A stretch of 36,664 nt of DNA from Syntrophorhabdaceae bacterium (GTDB taxonomy: Bacteria; Desulfobacterota; Syntrophorhabdia; Syntrophorhabdales; Syntrophorhabdaceae). The notes beneath the pieces are model-generated. The model worked only from the letters and a program-made list of their open reading frames with translations. It had not been told where the DNA came from and searched no databases. Positions 10,551 through 36,664 of the stretch are shown here, piece after piece. Within the stretch, counting starts at the first letter, position 1; every line of letters starts with the position of its first letter. Position numbers and translations under genes: made by a program. The stretch is from NCBI GenBank assembly GCA_035541755.1, contig DATKMQ010000180.1:1-36664 (forward strand), in the 5' to 3' direction.

Positions 10551-12263
10551 TTAGTACTGGGTTTTGAAATCTTTGTACTTTTCTACCAGCTCACCCCACT
10601 TCTTGGGCAGGTTAACCTTATGGGTAACCGGACCACCGTGATCCCCGCCGCCTCCATAATAGGTTATGCTGTTCCCATAGCTCATTCCGGCGACGAGAAT
10701 CGGTATATGCTTCCTGGAGAAGAACTTTTTGACCGATCTTGTGGGTTCTGCGGGCAACACAACTTCAGGGAGCGCGTGATTGTTAGCCTTTATCCACCGT
10801 ACCGGGGTATCGGAAACCGGTCTACGCGCATATTCCACGATATAGCGAGTCAAGTCCTCTCGTGAGAAACCATAGCGGTGCAACAGTTTTGCTGCCTCAG
10901 GACACAGCACGAATGCACATCCCGGATCGAAACCGAATACTTGCGGATCGTCACAAATAGCTTTCAACAACGGCTCGGGGTCAGCGCCGTATAAACAGAG
11001 CTGGCGTGTGTTTGGGAAAAACAGCGTGACCGCACTGTCCTCCTTATTGAAACCATAAAACTGATGCATCGGCTCCCATGGGCTCTCCTCTTCGTTCTCG
11101 CCAATACATATGCCGAACCGTCCTTCATGTCCGAACAGCCCGTTATCCTCGTAGCCGCCTCGCACTCCCGCAATGTTCATGATCAAAAGACCAATCGTAT
11201 TGCCTATAGCCGCATTAGCCCGATTGTAGGGACTGAAGACGCCAACCCCGCAGGCGACATCCAGGTCGCGCCGTATTGGTCCATTGATGATCAGGAGCGG
11301 CGCCCAGGACGCCACGCTGCAAGTATATGCCTCCAGCCAGAGCCTTGTATCTGCCAGCGCCTGCGTGGCTGCTATCAGGACAGGCATGTGAATAGGAAGG
11401 CATCCTGCCATGACACCATTGATGGCGATTTTCTCTACTGTAGCTTTGCCGTTCATGAGTGGGAGTTTAGCTACCACATGATCCGGGGGCAAATCAGTCC
11501 CCTTGATCATCTCTTTGACTACGTCTTCCGTGGGCGGTACGATCGGCATACCGTAGGCCCAGCCGCGCTGGTAGAAATACTTGTTTATCTCGTGGAAATC
11601 CCCCTTGGCCGCAATTCTCGGCAGGTTCTCATCCGGCCCTTTCGGGTTTGCTTCGTCCGGCAGAGGAGGCGACGTAAGGGCGGCGATGATATCGTCAAGA
11701 ACCACGCTGACAAGTTGGGGCACTTCTTCCTTAAGGTACTTGTTAAATTCGTCGGCATTTAGGCTTGAGATGTCGCGGATGTCTCCTTCCACATGTCTCA
11801 TTGCCGGAACGCCCCTGAGCGCGGCGGCTCTCCTAAAAATGTTTGAGAAGTTTCTCTTATGGAACACGACGGCCGGTTTGCCCAATCTTTCTACAAAGGC
11901 GGTGTTATATGTTTGATAGAGCGTACAGGAAGCAGCATCACCATATCCTGATATAGCCGCATCTACTCCGCCTACCCACTTTTCAAATCCTGGTTTAAAA
12001 TCAGGGTCTTTGGCTATTTCTGCCACCTCTGTGTACGCATTCGGGTCCTTGGTGTATTCGAAATAGCCGGTGAGTTTCATATTGGGATATCTTGCCTGCA
12101 GTTGTCGACCAACTTCCTCGACAATAGGACGCCAATGTCCCTTGAAGGTCGCTAGTAGGCCCAGTGTTATTTTATTCAGATCCTTTACTCTGGGCCGAAG
12201 GCCGATAGTGTTTACCGGGTCAGTCTCTCCACGGGGATTTAAGGCTTCATAAATCATATTCAT
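10551..12263 (-). CDS. Fusion of a UGSC-like domain (Sec position is Ala) with its partner domain
   Basis: A 570-residue two-domain protein. Residues about 28-205 resemble the UGSC selenoprotein at 34600-35130. LNKITLGLLATFKGHW and VDAAISGYGDAASCTLY correspond to LNGKVICIVDNGK and CHAVISGIGD-Sec-GSCTSW. Ala110 and Ala111 thus stand where Sec and Gly stand, while Cys113 is kept. Residues about 240-570 match the protein at 33459-34517, sharing NGxATVEKIAxNxVMAGCLP, INGPI, RANAxIG and ENEEEsPWEP. The start at 12263 has a strong GGAGGTAAG. It is the last gene of the AprAB-like/TRAP operon, 184 bp after dctP. A role in converting the imported substrate is likely, but the reaction is unknown. Confidence 0.85.
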   Translation of the reverse strand: MNMIYEALNPRGETDPVNTIGLRPRVKDLNKITLGLLATFKGHWRPIVEEVGRQLQARYPNMKLTGYFEYTKDPNAYTEVAEIAKDPDFKPGFEKWVGGVDAAISGYGDAASCTLYQTYNTAFVERLGKPAVVFHKRNFSNIFRRAAALRGVPAMRHVEGDIRDISSLNADEFNKYLKEEVPQLVSVVLDDIIAALTSPPLPDEANPKGPDENLPRIAAKGDFHEINKYFYQRGWAYGMPIVPPTEDVVKEMIKGTDLPPDHVVAKLPLMNGKATVEKIAINGVMAGCLPIHMPVLIAATQALADTRLWLEAYTCSVASWAPLLIINGPIRRDLDVACGVGVFSPYNRANAAIGNTIGLLIMNIAGVRGGYEDNGLFGHEGRFGICIGENEEESPWEPMHQFYGFNKEDSAVTLFFPNTRQLCLYGADPEPLLKAICDDPQVFGFDPGCAFVLCPEAAKLLHRYGFSREDLTRYIVEYARRPVSDTPVRWIKANNHALPEVVLPAEPTRSVKKFFSRKHIPILVAGMSYGNSITYYGGGGDHGGPVTHKVNLPKKWGELVEKYKDFKTQY

Positions 12264-12447
12264 CTTACCTCCGGTAGAATTATTTTGTTGCAACGCCAAA
12301 CAGGATGCCTGGTGAGCGTACACGGCCTGGCCGAAAGTACCAATGCTGCCTCAATCGGTATGCCTGGCATCAGGTTTTGGTCGACTCCTTCGCTCAGTTT
12401 GGCCATCGCCTCATTTCTCTCCGCAACTTAGCGTTGAGCATTATGGC

Positions 12448-31162: not shown

Positions 31163-32374
31163 TTAGGAATCACTTGTCGCATTGCGATCGACCAATTCCA
31201 TGAGTTCGCCCTTCAGTACGTCCATTGCGGCCTTGGCCATCATTTCAACGCCCGCCTCGGTCGGAGCATGTTTATAATTATCGGGATCATATCCCGCTGG
31301 CGGTACCCTGTTTGGATCAAAGGGATCCCGCACGACAGCGTCGAAGTCAATCACTCTATCGAAGACCCCGCTTTCCCGTATCCAGTTATTTACCGTATCC
31401 CGAGTATCCAGCTTCTGCGGGGTAACCCTCCCCTCAAACGTACCGCCTTTGTATATTTGCAGCGTACCGCCGATAACCCTGAGATTATGGGCCCGAGCCC
31501 GATCTACAATCTGTCTCAGCGCCACAATGATCTGATCGGATGTCCGCATCTGGTCCGCAGGGACCAAAATGAAACCTTTTTCTCTCATGCCGGGCAGAGA
31601 TATATCGTTGTGCCCAATAAAGATCAACACATGGGTAGCTCCGCACACGGTGAGCACGTCTCGATCAAAACGCGCTATACCGCTCGACCACTGGTGCAGG
31701 CCCGTCTCACCGGGTTTCCCAAACGTGAGTGAACCGGCGTACCCGGACTGGTTCACCACCGCGAATCTGCCTTGACTTTCTTTTATGATCAAATCGGGCC
31801 AATTCGCTGACCTCGTATCGCCGAAGATAACAAGTACTGCTGGTTTGTTTGTCGAATAGACCTCGACACTGCTTACGATTGTCGGCTCAATTCTTGCTTC
31901 TTCCAGCGCACCGGGATCACCAGTGTGATTCCCTTCCGACAAATAACAGGCATTCAGAGAAGGCAGAACCTGGCTCTGGCCATCCGGGTCAACCGCCCTG
32001 TGATAGCCTGCCGTCACAGCTGGTTCTGGAAAGTAGATGCTGATATCTAACTCGGCCATGGGAGGCACTTTGAGTTCAACAGGATCACTAAGTATAGGGG
32101 CACCGGGATAGATTGTGGCTGTGGGAAATCCACCAAACGTGAGCGAATGCGAGGCACCGTCAGGCCCAACGCGTAGTGAAGCTGCCCCAAACTTAATGGG
32201 CGCGATCCCCCATTCATTGGAGAATCTTACACGCACTTTGGTTCCTCCAGCACTTATCACCACCCGATGGCGCAGGGTTTGCTTATTTACCACCAGTGAA
32301 GGTTCTGGCGCTTTTTCGAGCATCGCAGACCAAGTCGTTATCCAACCCTCTCCTCTACTTTTTGGTTTACACAT
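31163..32374 (-). CDS. SGNH/GDSL-hydrolase-like protein with Thr at the nucleophile position
   Basis: A 403-residue protein. An N-terminal beta-rich domain (WITTWSAMLEK, LRHRVVISAGGTKVRVRFSNEWG, GASLRVG-like) matches the lectin-like part of SGNH hydrolases that begin W-x-x-T-W. The hydrolase part has block I VLVIFGDTRSANWPD, block III IFIGHNDIS and block V DNYKHAPTEAG. In block I the GDS serine is Thr187 and the usual TDG is missing. Asn256 of block III and His369 of block V are present. No signal peptide is seen, unusual for this group. The start at 32374 has AGGGGGT 10 bp upstream; a GTG at 32443 with GAGG is an alternative. It lies after the thioredoxin reductase-like gene. Confidence 0.75.
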   Translation of the reverse strand: MCKPKSRGEGWITTWSAMLEKAPEPSLVVNKQTLRHRVVISAGGTKVRVRFSNEWGIAPIKFGAASLRVGPDGASHSLTFGGFPTATIYPGAPILSDPVELKVPPMAELDISIYFPEPAVTAGYHRAVDPDGQSQVLPSLNACYLSEGNHTGDPGALEEARIEPTIVSSVEVYSTNKPAVLVIFGDTRSANWPDLIIKESQGRFAVVNQSGYAGSLTFGKPGETGLHQWSSGIARFDRDVLTVCGATHVLIFIGHNDISLPGMREKGFILVPADQMRTSDQIIVALRQIVDRARAHNLRVIGGTLQIYKGGTFEGRVTPQKLDTRDTVNNWIRESGVFDRVIDFDAVVRDPFDPNRVPPAGYDPDNYKHAPTEAGVEMMAKAAMDVLKGELMELVDRNATSDS

Positions 32375-32499
32375 GATCTCTGTTACCCCCTGCAGGAGCC
32401 GCCTAATGGCGCTAATCTTTATCCTGTTTTGCGAGCTCTTCACACGACCTCACGCTACGCCTTCAGAAAACACCCGTTTTTGGTCTGTGTTCCAACAGA

Positions 32500-33429
32500 T
32501 CAACACCAGTTGCACTCCGTTATATACTTACAAGCCTCTATGGCTGCTGTAGCGCCATCACCGACTGCTGCGGCTACCTGCATAGCTGATTGGTGACGTA
32601 TGTCTCCCGCGGCGAAAACCCCGGGGATACGGGTACCCATTTTGTAATTCACGAGAACACTTCCGGCCTTGTCCAATTCAACAGTCGCTTTGAGGTAATC
32701 AGTATTTGGCTCCATCCCGATCCAGACGAGCAAACCGTCAACCACCACCTGGGTCCTCCGCGCAGTATGAGCATCAACGAGCCATAGACTCCTGACCCGA
32801 TCATCACCGAGAATAGCCTCAATCCTAGTACTCAGTCGTATTTCTATTTTTGGATGCGCAAACGCGCGTTCTTGTAGGAGTTTTGTAGCGCCACTGCGAT
32901 CCATCGCCTCAATCACAATAACTTTTTTCACATAGCCCGCCAGATAGAGCGCTTCGGTCAGGCCGGAATCCCCGCTTCCCGCTACCGCTACAACCTGGTT
33001 GGCGAAGCCAGGACCATCACAGGTTGCACAGTAAAAGACTCCTCGTCCGGAAAACTCCTCCTCCCCCGGAACATGCAATTTCTTGTTGCGGGCTCCACCG
33101 GCTATAATAACTGCTTTGACAGCGTACTCCTCCTGCAGTGTCCTCACTATCCTGCGATCTCTCTCTATAGCAATCGAGGTAGCGGTATCAAATTCGAGAT
33201 CAGCACCATAGGCTGTCGCATGTTCGAACATCCTTGTGCCCAAATCGGCGCCCGATATTCCTTCAGGGTAACTCGGGTAGTTTTCGATCTTCTCCCTGTC
33301 AGGCAGTTTTCCTCCGATTGTTTCTCTGTCCAGAAGCAGTGTCCGCAATCTATTGCGGCTCGTGTAGATACCGGCGGTTAACCCTGCCGGACCAGCACCG
33401 ATAATAACGACGTCATAATTTTCGTTCAT
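32500..33429 (-). CDS. trxB: Thioredoxin reductase-like FAD/NAD(P) disulfide oxidoreductase
   Basis: A 309-residue flavoprotein. FAD site GAGPAGLTAG (11-20), redox-active C134-x2-C137 in FYCATCDGPGF, NAD(P) site GSGDSG (151-156), and C-terminal FAADIRH followed by QVAAAVGDGATAAIEA. Length and CxxC spacing fit low-molecular-weight thioredoxin reductase. AAAGGAAAG lies upstream. It is 29 bp after the UGSC partner gene, in line with the selenoprotein, so it may reduce the Sec/Cys pair of that protein either directly or through a thioredoxin. The housekeeping enzyme may be encoded elsewhere. Confidence 0.9.
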   Translation of the reverse strand: MNENYDVVIIGAGPAGLTAGIYTSRNRLRTLLLDRETIGGKLPDREKIENYPSYPEGISGADLGTRMFEHATAYGADLEFDTATSIAIERDRRIVRTLQEEYAVKAVIIAGGARNKKLHVPGEEEFSGRGVFYCATCDGPGFANQVVAVAGSGDSGLTEALYLAGYVKKVIVIEAMDRSGATKLLQERAFAHPKIEIRLSTRIEAILGDDRVRSLWLVDAHTARRTQVVVDGLLVWIGMEPNTDYLKATVELDKAGSVLVNYKMGTRIPGVFAAGDIRHQSAMQVAAAVGDGATAAIEACKYITECNWC

Positions 33430-33458: not shown

Positions 33459-34517
33459 CTACCCTCTGATTAGCTTCGTAGCCGAGTAGCTCGGTCCGAA
33501 CGTCGGAATAAAACAGGAATGCTTTCCGTCCCCTCCAACTACCAACACCACGATGTTTTCTCTTTTTGCCAGCGGCACGTATTCGCTTTCCACAAAGTCA
33601 CCGTACATCTCTTTACCCCCCTTCTTCCTTGCCATGATTTGTTCTTCGGGCATCCTATTAAGGGGAAATCGTGCGTACTCGAATATAAAATCCTTTATAT
33701 CATTTTTTGAAAAACCATCTTCTGCCAGCCTCTTGGCGTGTTCAGGGCATAACACAAGAAGGGGTTCGCCCATGAAGGTCCAAAGATTATTATTACCTGG
33801 GGTGGCCATGGTTCCCGCTGCGGTCATTAAAATCCCCTTTCCTGTGAGACTCTCGGACTCATGGATATTGTGGGGGCCTTCCGCCGCGAAGACTGTAACC
33901 GTCGAGTCGTCCATATTGAACCCGCGTTCAACATGCAAGGGTTGCCAAGGATTTTGTTCTTCGTTCTCGGCCACGCAATAGGTATATTTCGCTGGCTGTC
34001 CTTGCGTCGATTTATCGACTTCGCCGGGAACAGCCCCACCCACGTTGAGCATGATCAGTCGCAAAGCTCTTCCGATCGTTGCGTTTGCCCGACCGCCGGG
34101 GCCGAAGGCACTGGCACCTCCGTTGATACCGAGTTTTTTTGCAATGGGACCATTAATCACAACCAAGGCGCCGCACGGATGTGTAGTTGTTTGAATCGCC
34201 AAAATTCCGAACTTCTCGTCGGTAATCGACTCCACCGCAGCGATAACAACCGGCAGGTACTCGGGCAAGCAGCCTGCCATGACAGCGTTGACCGCTATCT
34301 TCTCCACTGTCGCAGAGCCGTTCAACGGGGGGAGCGTGGCGATCAGTTCCTGCGGGTCTCTGTTTACCGAAGACAGCGCCCTCAATACCCGCTCTTCCGT
34401 AGGCGCAACGATGGGTAATCCGTCTGTCCATCCCTTTTCATAGAAAAGCTGGCTCGCTGCGTCTGCAGATTCATCGACTTCCAGCTGTTCCGAAAGTAAT
34501 CTCGTCTTATTGGTCAT
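33459..34517 (-). CDS. UGSC-partner protein (homologous to the C-terminal domain of the 10551-12263 fusion)
   Basis: A 352-residue soluble protein of no proven function. Conserved with the fusion protein: FYEKGWTDGLPIVAPTEE, PPLNGSATVEKIAVNAVMAGCLPEYLPVVIAA, LVVINGPIAKKLGI, GGRANATIGRALRLIMLNVGG, CVAENEEQNPWQPLHVERGF, and a C-terminal VVGGDGKHSCFIP. A cysteine in VMAGCLP is shared by both. AAAGGAG lies upstream of the ATG at 34517. It follows the selenoprotein gene by about 80 bp. The fusion elsewhere in the window indicates that it works in contact with the UGSC protein. Confidence 0.88.
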   Translation of the reverse strand: MTNKTRLLSEQLEVDESADAASQLFYEKGWTDGLPIVAPTEERVLRALSSVNRDPQELIATLPPLNGSATVEKIAVNAVMAGCLPEYLPVVIAAVESITDEKFGILAIQTTTHPCGALVVINGPIAKKLGINGGASAFGPGGRANATIGRALRLIMLNVGGAVPGEVDKSTQGQPAKYTYCVAENEEQNPWQPLHVERGFNMDDSTVTVFAAEGPHNIHESESLTGKGILMTAAGTMATPGNNNLWTFMGEPLLVLCPEHAKRLAEDGFSKNDIKDFIFEYARFPLNRMPEEQIMARKKGGKEMYGDFVESEYVPLAKRENIVVLVVGGDGKHSCFIPTFGPSYSATKLIRG

Positions 34518-34599: not shown

Positions 34600-35130
34600 C
34601 TAGCCAGTGAGGGCTTTTACTAATATATCGATCGACTTATCCGCTTTCTCCCTCACCTTTTCCGGCTCAAGGCCGCCGATGGGATGAGGAATCACCACGA
34701 GAGTCAGCGTGCTCAACCCCTTGGCCCTCGCCACAGTCTTAGCGAGGCCGACAAACTGATCACTCACAATGGCAGCGGTAGCTACACCACGTTTCTCAAA
34801 TTCTATGGCATCGTGGATACACCACGATGTGCATGATCCTCAGTCACCAATCCCACTGATAACCGCGTGGCATGTCCTGGCCAGTTCATCAAGGCGATCC
34901 TGCGGCGTGGGATTTGAGGAGCCAAGATGGCCTTTTTTCACATGTATTACCTGGGCCAGATTATACTTCTGACGTAGCAATTCTTCCACCCTCTTCACGT
35001 AAACATCGAAGTTAGGTTTCCCATTATCTACAATACAGATCACCTTTCCGTTCAGGTCCCCGATGCGGGAGCTCACCTGGCATTTTGACGCCGGCAACAC
35101 ACCGGCAGGGCTGAGCACTTTTATGACCAT
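34600..35130 (-). CDS. UGSC-family selenoprotein with in-frame UGA (Sec97)
   Basis: A 176-residue thioredoxin-like selenoprotein read through a UGA. The frame from ATG 35130 (GGGAGGTG upstream) runs ISGIGD, then UGA at 34842-34840, then GSCTSWCIHDAIEFEKRGVATAAIVSD and onward to TAG at 34602-34600. The motif Sec97-Gly98-Ser99-Cys100 is the signature of the UGSC family. Ten nt after the UGA is a perfect 8-bp hairpin with loop UGUAU, placed as a bacterial SECIS. After the UGA the frame stays open for 79 codons and keeps the homology to the fusion protein (for example PHPIGGLEPEKVREKADKSIDIL). A normal gene caller would stop at residue 96. It likely forms a selenenylsulfide and is reduced by the nearby TrxB-like enzyme. 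Confidence 0.9.
34809..34829 (-). promoter_or_regulatory. Candidate bacterial SECIS hairpin inside the selenoprotein gene
   Basis: On the coding strand CATCGTGG pairs perfectly with CCACGATG, leaving a 5-nt loop UGUAU with G at its second position. It begins 10 nt after the UGA, so its loop lies about 18 nt after that codon. This is where SelB-binding hairpins sit in bacterial selenoprotein mRNAs, and a G near the start of the loop is common in them. Confidence 0.8.
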
Positions 35131-35244: not shown

Positions 35245-35679
35245 CTACATCCGCTTTGGCGTCAATGCCGCGGGCGGATATATCTTGAGTCTGGCCACCC
35301 TGTTGCCGCGAAACGTATACCACGCACTCACTCTATGCGCGACCCTATCACCTTTTTTGAGCGGTGTGATGTTATGATCGGGTACGTCTACCGTGGCATC
35401 CAGTTGAATAATAAGTTCCGCCGCCGCGACGTCGCCGGTGATCAGCAGTCTGACAGGGGTGATAGTTTCTTTGATGGCCTCTCCCCTGTGTACCCCCTTC
35501 ATATAGTTAATTACGTTATCTCGACCCGAGTATTCGAGACCTCCGGGATTCTCGTACACAACGTCTTCCGTAAAATAGTTGAGCGCTCCGTACTCGTAAC
35601 CCTTGGTGCTAAAGTCTCTGTAGAATTGCTCGAGTCTTTCCTTAGTCATTGTTGTATTTTCTGGGTTTCCAGCATTCAT
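35245..35679 (-). CDS. SnoaL/NTF2-like protein
   Basis: A 144-residue protein of the SnoaL-like (NTF2 fold) group. Seen: LEQFYRDFSTKGYEYGALNYFTEDVVYENPGGLEYSGRDNVINYMKGVHRG, typical for the first helix, tryptophan-free cavity and the F/V-x-x-x-G-R-x-x-I pattern, then WYTFRGNRVARLKIYPP. Members act as cyclases, isomerases or hydratases of small molecules. The start at 35679 is preferred since GAGAGGAA precedes it; the ATG at 35715 lies inside a 10-bp hairpin. It follows the TRAP binding protein and precedes the selenoprotein. Confidence 0.75.
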   Translation of the reverse strand: MNAGNPENTTMTKERLEQFYRDFSTKGYEYGALNYFTEDVVYENPGGLEYSGRDNVINYMKGVHRGEAIKETITPVRLLITGDVAAAELIIQLDATVDVPDHNITPLKKGDRVAHRVSAWYTFRGNRVARLKIYPPAALTPKRM

Positions 35680-35701
35680 GATCTGCAAATTCCTCTCATC
35701 A

Positions 35702-35727
35702 GCGTTGCCATTCATTCATGGCAACGC
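35702..35727. repeat. 10-bp perfect hairpin between dctP and the SnoaL-like gene
   Basis: GCGTTGCCAT and ATGGCAACGC pair perfectly around a 6-nt loop. It lies 47 bp downstream of the dctP stop codon. Lacking a T-run, it looks more like a stabilising structure at the 3' end of the binding protein mRNA than a terminator; such structures are common after periplasmic binding protein genes. Confidence 0.6.
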
Positions 35728-35773: not shown

Positions 35774-36664
35774 CTATTTCTGGTTCTTCTTTATCCAGTC
35801 CCTGATCCATGCCACTTCCTCGGCGGCAGGAAATCCTTTTGCACCTTTTTCCTTGATATATGCATCGTAAAGGGGGGCAACCTGCTGAGCCCATCTGTCC
35901 TCTTCTGCGCTGTCTAAATTAATAGTTTGGTGTTTATGGTCCGCAGCGATTTTAATTGATTCTGCATCTTTCTCATCCCAGATGGCGGCCATCTTTCCGG
36001 CGTATTCATTGCCGAGCTGTTCTATGATCTTCTGGATATCGGCCGGCAGAGATTCCCATTTCGTCTTGTTCATCGCTATAAAGCCTACTGCGGATACGGA
36101 TGTCTTACGGTTAACAGTCGTGTAGTCTGCCACTTCGTAGAATTTAAACTGGCCCACCGCCGCCCATGGATTAATAAGACCGTTCACCACCCCTTTTGAG
36201 ATGGCATCATACACATCGCTCGCTGGCATAACCACCGGCACCGCACCGAGAGCCTTCACGACATTCACCACCGCTCCGCCGGCGCATCTGATTTTCACTC
36301 CTTTCAGATCTTCGAGTTTTCTGATCGCTTTCTTTGTATGAAAGTATTGCGGTGATGGTGCCGTGAGAAAGAGAACCTTTACTCCATCCAATTCTTTAGG
36401 CTTGAATTTCTTGTAGAATTCATTGGCGAGCCTTGTCATTACGGCGGAGCTCGCACTTCCAGTGGGCAGATCGAGAATTTCCATTACAGGAAAACGCCCC
36501 GGGGTTATAGCAAAACTAGTCTCGCCGATATCCACAACGCCCTTAATGAGGGAATCGAATGTCTGATTAGGCGGCGTGAGCGTGCCCCCGGGAAAAAAAT
36601 CGACCTTTACCCTGCCGTTCGTCTTCGCCTCGATGTCCTTCCCAAATTCTCCGAGTGCGATGCT
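35774..36664 (-). CDS. dctP: TRAP transporter periplasmic binding protein DctP (partial, N-terminus outside window)
   Basis: The C-terminal 296 residues or so of a TRAP binding protein; the frame is open to base 36664 and the signal peptide lies beyond. Seen: SIALGEFGKDIEAKTNGRVKVDFFPGGTL, DIGETSFA, the ligand-arginine block KLEDLKGVKIRCAGG, and SDVYDAISKGVVNGLINPW. It is distinct from the DctP at 12448-13467. The permease genes are not in the window; they probably lie upstream or elsewhere. It leads into the selenoprotein cluster. Confidence 0.92.
   Translation of the reverse strand, partial: SIALGEFGKDIEAKTNGRVKVDFFPGGTLTPPNQTFDSLIKGVVDIGETSFAITPGRFPVMEILDLPTGSASSAVMTRLANEFYKKFKPKELDGVKVLFLTAPSPQYFHTKKAIRKLEDLKGVKIRCAGGAVVNVVKALGAVPVVMPASDVYDAISKGVVNGLINPWAAVGQFKFYEVADYTTVNRKTSVSAVGFIAMNKTKWESLPADIQKIIEQLGNEYAGKMAAIWDEKDAESIKIAADHKHQTINLDSAEEDRWAQQVAPLYDAYIKEKGAKGFPAAEEVAWIRDWIKKNQK

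Follow-up and report, generated by a model that had tools for sequence, protein, structure and literature searches.

The UGSC locus and its gene neighborhood

Here, we describe a gene of the UGSC selenoprotein family, its partner gene and their neighbors near one end of a 36,664-nt stretch of DNA (hereafter, the window) from a Syntrophorhabdaceae bacterium (contig DATKMQ010000180.1). The gene occupies positions 34600..35130 on the minus strand, running from an ATG at 35130, with the ribosome-binding-like sequence GGGAGGTGA upstream, to a TAG at 34602-34600, and encodes 176 amino acids if the in-frame UGA at 34840..34842 is read as selenocysteine (Sec), residue 97. A mechanical ORF caller closes the frame at this UGA (34842-34840) and thereby truncates the gene to an ORF of 96 codons (35130..34840). 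Read through, the frame continues as U97-G-S-C, in the context GIGD-U-G-S-C-T, and extends for 79 residues past the U with no second internal stop. An earlier reading of the letters alone (the sequence-only reading) had described the frame, the motif and the 79 additional residues, all of which we recovered; the minus strand was missing from that description. The read-through protein scores above the curated cut-offs of both NCBIfam NF041046, “UGSC family (seleno)protein” (143.7 bits, cut-off 125), and Pfam PF24696, “UGSC” (164.9 bits, cut-off 25), and the UGSC/CGSC active-site motif of these families is present as U97-G-S-C, which falls in the corresponding alignment column. Judged by these comparisons, the gene is a complete, new member of the known UGSC selenoprotein family, for which a (seleno)protein model already exists at NCBI.

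The gene belongs to a run of minus-strand genes, probably an operon, with gaps of 29 to 114 nt. The run is headed by the solute-binding protein (DctP) of a TRAP transporter (35774..36664, cut by the window end), followed by a SnoaL-like protein (35245..35715), from which the UGSC gene is separated by 114 nt. Downstream lie the gene for a protein that we denote UNK1 (33459..34517; 352 aa), a thioredoxin-reductase (TrxR) homolog with a CATC redox motif that starts 29 nt past UNK1 (32500..33429), and a GDSL-like hydrolase (31163..32443). Elsewhere in the window, on the same strand, a paralog (10551..12323) combines the UGSC and UNK1 domains in one protein and carries Ala in place of Sec (DAASC). 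The homology of the UGSC protein to this fusion, previously claimed for 10551-12263, is real (PF24696, 59.5 bits) and is confined to the N-terminal domain of the fusion.

The in-frame UGA and its decoding

The host genome (3.85 Mb in 180 contigs, 95.8% complete) is not devoid of sel genes: it encodes tRNA-Sec (76.3 bits, gathering threshold 47), SelB (377.6 bits), SelA (583.5 bits) and SelD (373 bits), each over its cut-off. The SelD gene (contig C90, locus L022) itself contains one in-frame TGA, and its product is probably a selenoprotein as well.

We aligned 88 UGSC domains, 8 from the host genome and the rest from loci fetched independently by UNK1, 66 of 80 of which also hold a UGSC domain. 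The Sec column contains TGA in 81 sequences, Cys in 5 and Ala in 2, and the half downstream of the UGA is conserved in all 88, so that homologs do not consistently end at this codon. Within the host genome, 6 of the 10 UGSC domains carry a single in-frame TGA. In a sample of 99 genomes from the same phylum, UGSC domains were detected in 15. Among the 14 genomes with a TGA copy, SelB was found in 11 and SelA, with no SelB over the cut-off, in 3 (G009, G033 and G093), while G092, in which the sole UGSC copy has no TGA, is missing both SelA and SelB; given that SelB is common in the phylum (85 of 99 genomes), its presence alone is weak evidence, and the matching absence is a single case. In G033 (4.2 Mb), there are 23 UGSC-domain matches, mostly with TGA, which amounts to a large expansion of paralogs.

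Directly downstream of the UGA lies a hairpin of the bacterial SECIS type (34809..34829, minus strand), CATCGTGG-UGUAU-CCACGATG, which, as noticed in the sequence-only reading, is a perfect 8-bp stem (34829 to 34809) separated from the UGA by 10 nt. We superimposed 77 distinct TGA sequences, with the UGA as common origin and gaps disallowed; the core stem, in which positions 14-18 past the UGA face positions 24-28, was fully paired in 65, compared with 0-2 of 77 when one side was slid by 1-3 nt. Paired cells in the core stem numbered 355 of 385, against 290.6 ± 5.7 (maximum 311 in 2000) when the 3′ arms were reshuffled among the sequences; kinship inflates such covariation counts, and the slid controls preserve kinship. 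Compensatory arm pairs include CGTGG/CCACG, CGTGC/GCACG, CGGGC/GCTCG, CGTTG/CAACG and CATGG/CCATG, and GU is conserved in the apical loop of 66 of the 77 sequences. The folding energy after the UGA, compared with elsewhere in the same genes, is −15.7 vs −10.1 kcal/mol in the UGA copies and −9.5 vs −8.7 kcal/mol in seven non-UGA copies. Two points speak against the element: the hairpin coincides with conserved codons, and in one haloarchaeal version, which has Cys, the stem can still pair. An Rfam scan of the window returned no match, which says little for so short a hairpin. Position, pairing, covariation and the apical GU are all those of a SECIS element directly following the UGA.

Two other readings of this codon have to be considered. 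If the UGA were a genuine stop, or the gene had decayed, the 96-residue protein delimited by the ORF caller would be the actual product and the downstream part would go untranslated; this is highly improbable, given that the UGA is retained at one codon in nearly all aligned domains, the downstream half is conserved throughout, the hairpin covaries, the host has a full set of sel genes, and the frame contains no other stops. A variant code, under which the UGA specifies another amino acid, such as Trp, would equally account for a frame that is open once the UGA is read through, and is more improbable still: nearly all matches contain a single UGA, placed at the redox position where five homologs have Cys, the presence and absence of selB and selA track the UGA, and the other genes in the window, including those for UNK1 and TrxR, are open under the normal code. 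Taken together, the family scores, the sel genes, the conservation of the UGA, the hairpin and the same-phylum cross-check strongly support the original claim of Sec in a UGSC-family protein. Thus, codon 97 is almost certainly decoded as Sec, and there is little room for doubt that the gene product is a selenoprotein. With the family cut-offs passed, the codon kept, and the hairpin recurring, with compensatory changes, at an unchanged distance from the UGA, the observation stands well above chance.

UNK1 as a constant partner

UNK1 (34517-33459) has no match in Pfam or NCBIfam at E 0.1 and shares 38% identity with its homolog, the C-terminal portion of the 10551-12323 fusion. All 10 UGSC domains in the host genome are accompanied by UNK1, nine of them fused to it and one, the product of 34600..35130, encoded by an adjacent gene. 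The 80 loci from other genomes were picked by UNK1, so that the counts from these loci measure the need of UNK1 for UGSC: in 69 of 97 UNK1 places, the two are fused (14) or adjacent, with UGSC at most 400 nt upstream (27) or downstream (28), whereas in 12 UGSC lies further off in the locus and in 16 none is found in the flanks. Fusion, combined with adjacency in both gene orders, is strong evidence that UGSC and UNK1 share a function, and we infer with considerable confidence that they form one functional unit, which is likely to be a redox unit. Clustering of the neighbors revealed no fixed third gene besides the UGSC and UNK1 families.

Among the sampled loci, seven from Poribacteria encode UNK1 and no UGSC in the flanks, which mostly span about 6 kb on each side. 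The haloarchaeon Natrialba asiatica has the UGSC-UNK1 pair in a Cys version (CGSC). The genes also occur in metagenome bins that bear the names Klebsiella pneumoniae and Bordetella parapertussis, labels that may be wrong. In the host genome, the fusions on contigs C31, C81, C100 and C122 have N-termini that by eye resemble signal peptides, suggesting that some UGSC-UNK1 fusions are exported.

Four of the ten host copies carry no Sec; the residue is Ala in the window paralog (10551-12323) and in a copy on contig C137, Ile in another copy on C137, and Gln on C122, and the remainder of the protein is kept in each. In the UNK1 tree, these copies fall into two groups, and the sisters of each group bear Sec (support 0.98-1.0); thus, there were at least two losses of Sec, and in no case was it replaced by Cys. 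Sec is therefore dispensable for whatever these copies do, which implies that either the Sec-less copies are not redox enzymes or the activity common to all copies resides in UNK1.

Linkage to thioredoxin reductases

The host genome encodes three full-length TrxR, of which one, over the curated cut-off, is located elsewhere, and the two below the cut-off both adjoin UGSC-UNK1 genes, one at 32500..33429 and the other on contig C129, where it immediately precedes a further UGSC-UNK1 fusion. By a rough estimate, with ten UGSC loci and thousands of genes, such two-of-two adjacency would arise by chance a few times in 100,000. The UNK1 proteins next to the two reductases belong to distant branches of the tree, so that the association does not reflect one inherited copy. 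A TrxR as a fixed neighbor across bacteria was rejected: no reductase of this kind was found in any of the 80 loci of other genomes, indicating that an electron donor of this type is no constant component of the UGSC-UNK1 system.

Predicted fold and probable relationship to GrdB

AlphaFold2 was run on 51 sequences from the window and the loci. The model of the UGSC protein (pLDDT 92.9, pTM 0.86) alternates between strands and helices (predicted order E-H-E-H-E-H-E-H-E-H), and its UGSC motif lies where strand 3 leads into the third helix. Thus, the protein is predicted to be a Rossmann-like, alternating beta-alpha domain with Sec97 and Cys100 in the turn past strand 3. The thioredoxin fold, by contrast, consists of beta-alpha-beta followed by beta-beta-alpha, with CxxC at the first helix; as the motif precedes the third helix in our model, the predicted order of elements is not that of a thioredoxin, and this candidate fold is not supported by the model. 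No thioredoxin chains were present among the best 50 structural matches of the model, which alone excludes nothing. These matches, with Z of about 8 to 11, were to generic domains of the alternating alpha/beta kind, among them PurE, response regulators and LarB, and they reflect a common arrangement in the model, not a function. A sequence search against solved structures yielded nothing credible for either the UGSC protein or UNK1. For a fused homolog (L039:1851-3557), the model (pLDDT 91.7, pTM 0.92) gave a structure search dominated by the UGSC part; the best match of residues 20-169 (model m5b42177c5e2c) is chain H of 8s7v, a methyl-coenzyme M reductase activation complex (Z 11.5, 128 aligned residues, rmsd 3.0), slightly above the other matches.

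Profile comparisons point to GrdB, the Sec subunit of glycine/sarcosine/betaine reductase (PF07355), of which PrdB is a relative. The UGSC profile finds a GrdB at its UGTC motif with 23.5 bits, and, when aligned GrdB and GrdB-like proteins from genomes of the same phylum were compared with the UGSC alignment by hhalign, the probability was 95.4% across 89 columns, with Sec aligned to Sec and PHP-G to PHP-G, a comparison that covers a short region and has an E-value for one pair only. We found no direct match of the UGSC protein to PF07355 at E 0.1. By these comparisons, the UGSC protein is not a member of the GrdB family and is probably homologous to its Sec domain. Of the proposed thioredoxin-like enzyme, then, the UxxC motif is present, whereas the fold part lacks support in view of the alternating beta-alpha model and the profile link to the Sec domain of GrdB. 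In the glycine reductase protein B complex, the partner of GrdB is the pyruvoyl protein GrdE. We rejected UNK1 as an equivalent of GrdE: the probability against the GrdE profile is 0.1%, and the conserved region of UNK1 lacks the invariant Cys that a pyruvoyl group would require. Elsewhere in the host genome, on contig C85 (L143:5932-6885, also L036), a TGA at a U-P-I-C motif interrupts the frame of a GrdB-like protein; the weak PF07355 match (19.4 bits) extends across the TGA, and the gene probably encodes a further selenoprotein.

Proposed function

On balance, we favor the proposal that the Sec-decoded UGSC protein, a probable relative of the Sec domain of GrdB, acts as a unit with UNK1 in a reductive attack and is recharged by TrxR. 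Incorporation of Sec at codon 97 by SelA, SelB, SelC and SelD, aided by the SECIS hairpin just downstream, is close to being shown. The substrate, perhaps an organic acid, may be imported via the TRAP-type binding protein that is encoded at the head of this run of genes; the Sec97/Cys100 redox pair would then attack the bound small molecule reductively, and the resulting selenenyl-sulfide might be reduced by the adjacent TrxR, either directly or via thioredoxin. The electron scheme is borrowed from glycine reductase, and the chance that UGSC-UNK1 is a substrate-specific reductase fed by TrxR falls just short of even. More tentatively, UGSC and UNK1 could represent an undescribed class of two-part selenoreductases, in which a GrdB-type Sec domain is combined with a new partner in place of GrdE and with dedicated recharge by TrxR, and which diversified into many paralogs in each genome, acting on different imported substrates and some of them Sec-less.

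Alternatively, the selenoprotein might be a general thiol oxidoreductase or a peroxide-detoxifying enzyme with a thioredoxin-like fold rather than a metabolic reductase, in line with the UxxC motif, the adjacent TrxR and the likely thioredoxin fold to which a 2008 paper assigns UGSC (PMC2398784). We consider this unlikely because the topology of the model is alternating beta-alpha with the motif past strand 3, the profiles relate the protein to GrdB, the pairing with the large UNK1 domain is constant, and there are numerous paralogs per genome, several of them close to transporter genes. Less likely again is that UNK1 is the real enzyme and UGSC mainly a binding or regulatory subunit, with Sec serving to bind a metal, selenium or an electrophile. 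Sec loss without replacement by Cys in the four host copies, in at least two lineages and with the UNK1 domain kept, would fit such a division of labor, as would the UNK1 genes without a nearby UGSC in the sampled Poribacteria; yet, across phyla, the large majority of copies retain Sec, a pattern that is difficult to account for unless the residue acts in redox chemistry or as a nucleophile. For the favored UGSC-UNK1 redox unit, the constant UNK1 partner, the likely kinship with GrdB and the two linked TrxR jointly provide a concrete, testable idea of what UGSC proteins do.

Comparison with known selenoproteins

The glycine reductase complex binds its substrate through the Sec subunit, GrdB, and takes its electrons from thioredoxin (PMC13188914). 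GrdB and PrdB share with the UGSC protein a Sec-G-T/S-C motif that is followed by a similar helix and the PHP-G region, whereas the N-terminal half of GrdB is missing from UGSC, and UNK1 is unrelated to GrdE.

The UGSC family was reported in a 2008 study of marine metagenomes, which describes the Sec motif, a UGSC/Unknown_1 fusion and a presumed thioredoxin-like fold, and ranks UGSC among the most abundant selenoproteins of the Global Ocean Sampling survey (PMC2398784); a 2026 review still lists it with selenoproteins of largely uncharacterized function (PMC13188914). The guess of the 2008 paper at the fold (PMC2398784) is not supported by our model, suggesting that the published thioredoxin-fold label merits another look. 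In the Unknown_1 fusion of that paper (PMC2398784, supplementary figure S1), which comes from aquatic bacteria, UGSC is joined to an uncharacterized conserved domain. This domain may be the same as UNK1. Our literature search, of partial coverage, found no paper on a link between UGSC and GrdB or on a split UGSC/UNK1 pair with TrxR. With the published family, as represented by NF041046, PF24696 and the 2008 paper (PMC2398784), the gene at 34600..35130 shares passage of the cut-offs, the UGSC motif with UGA, the downstream SECIS and a partner that is fused in some members; it differs in that its partner is encoded by a gene of its own alongside, with TrxR next to it.
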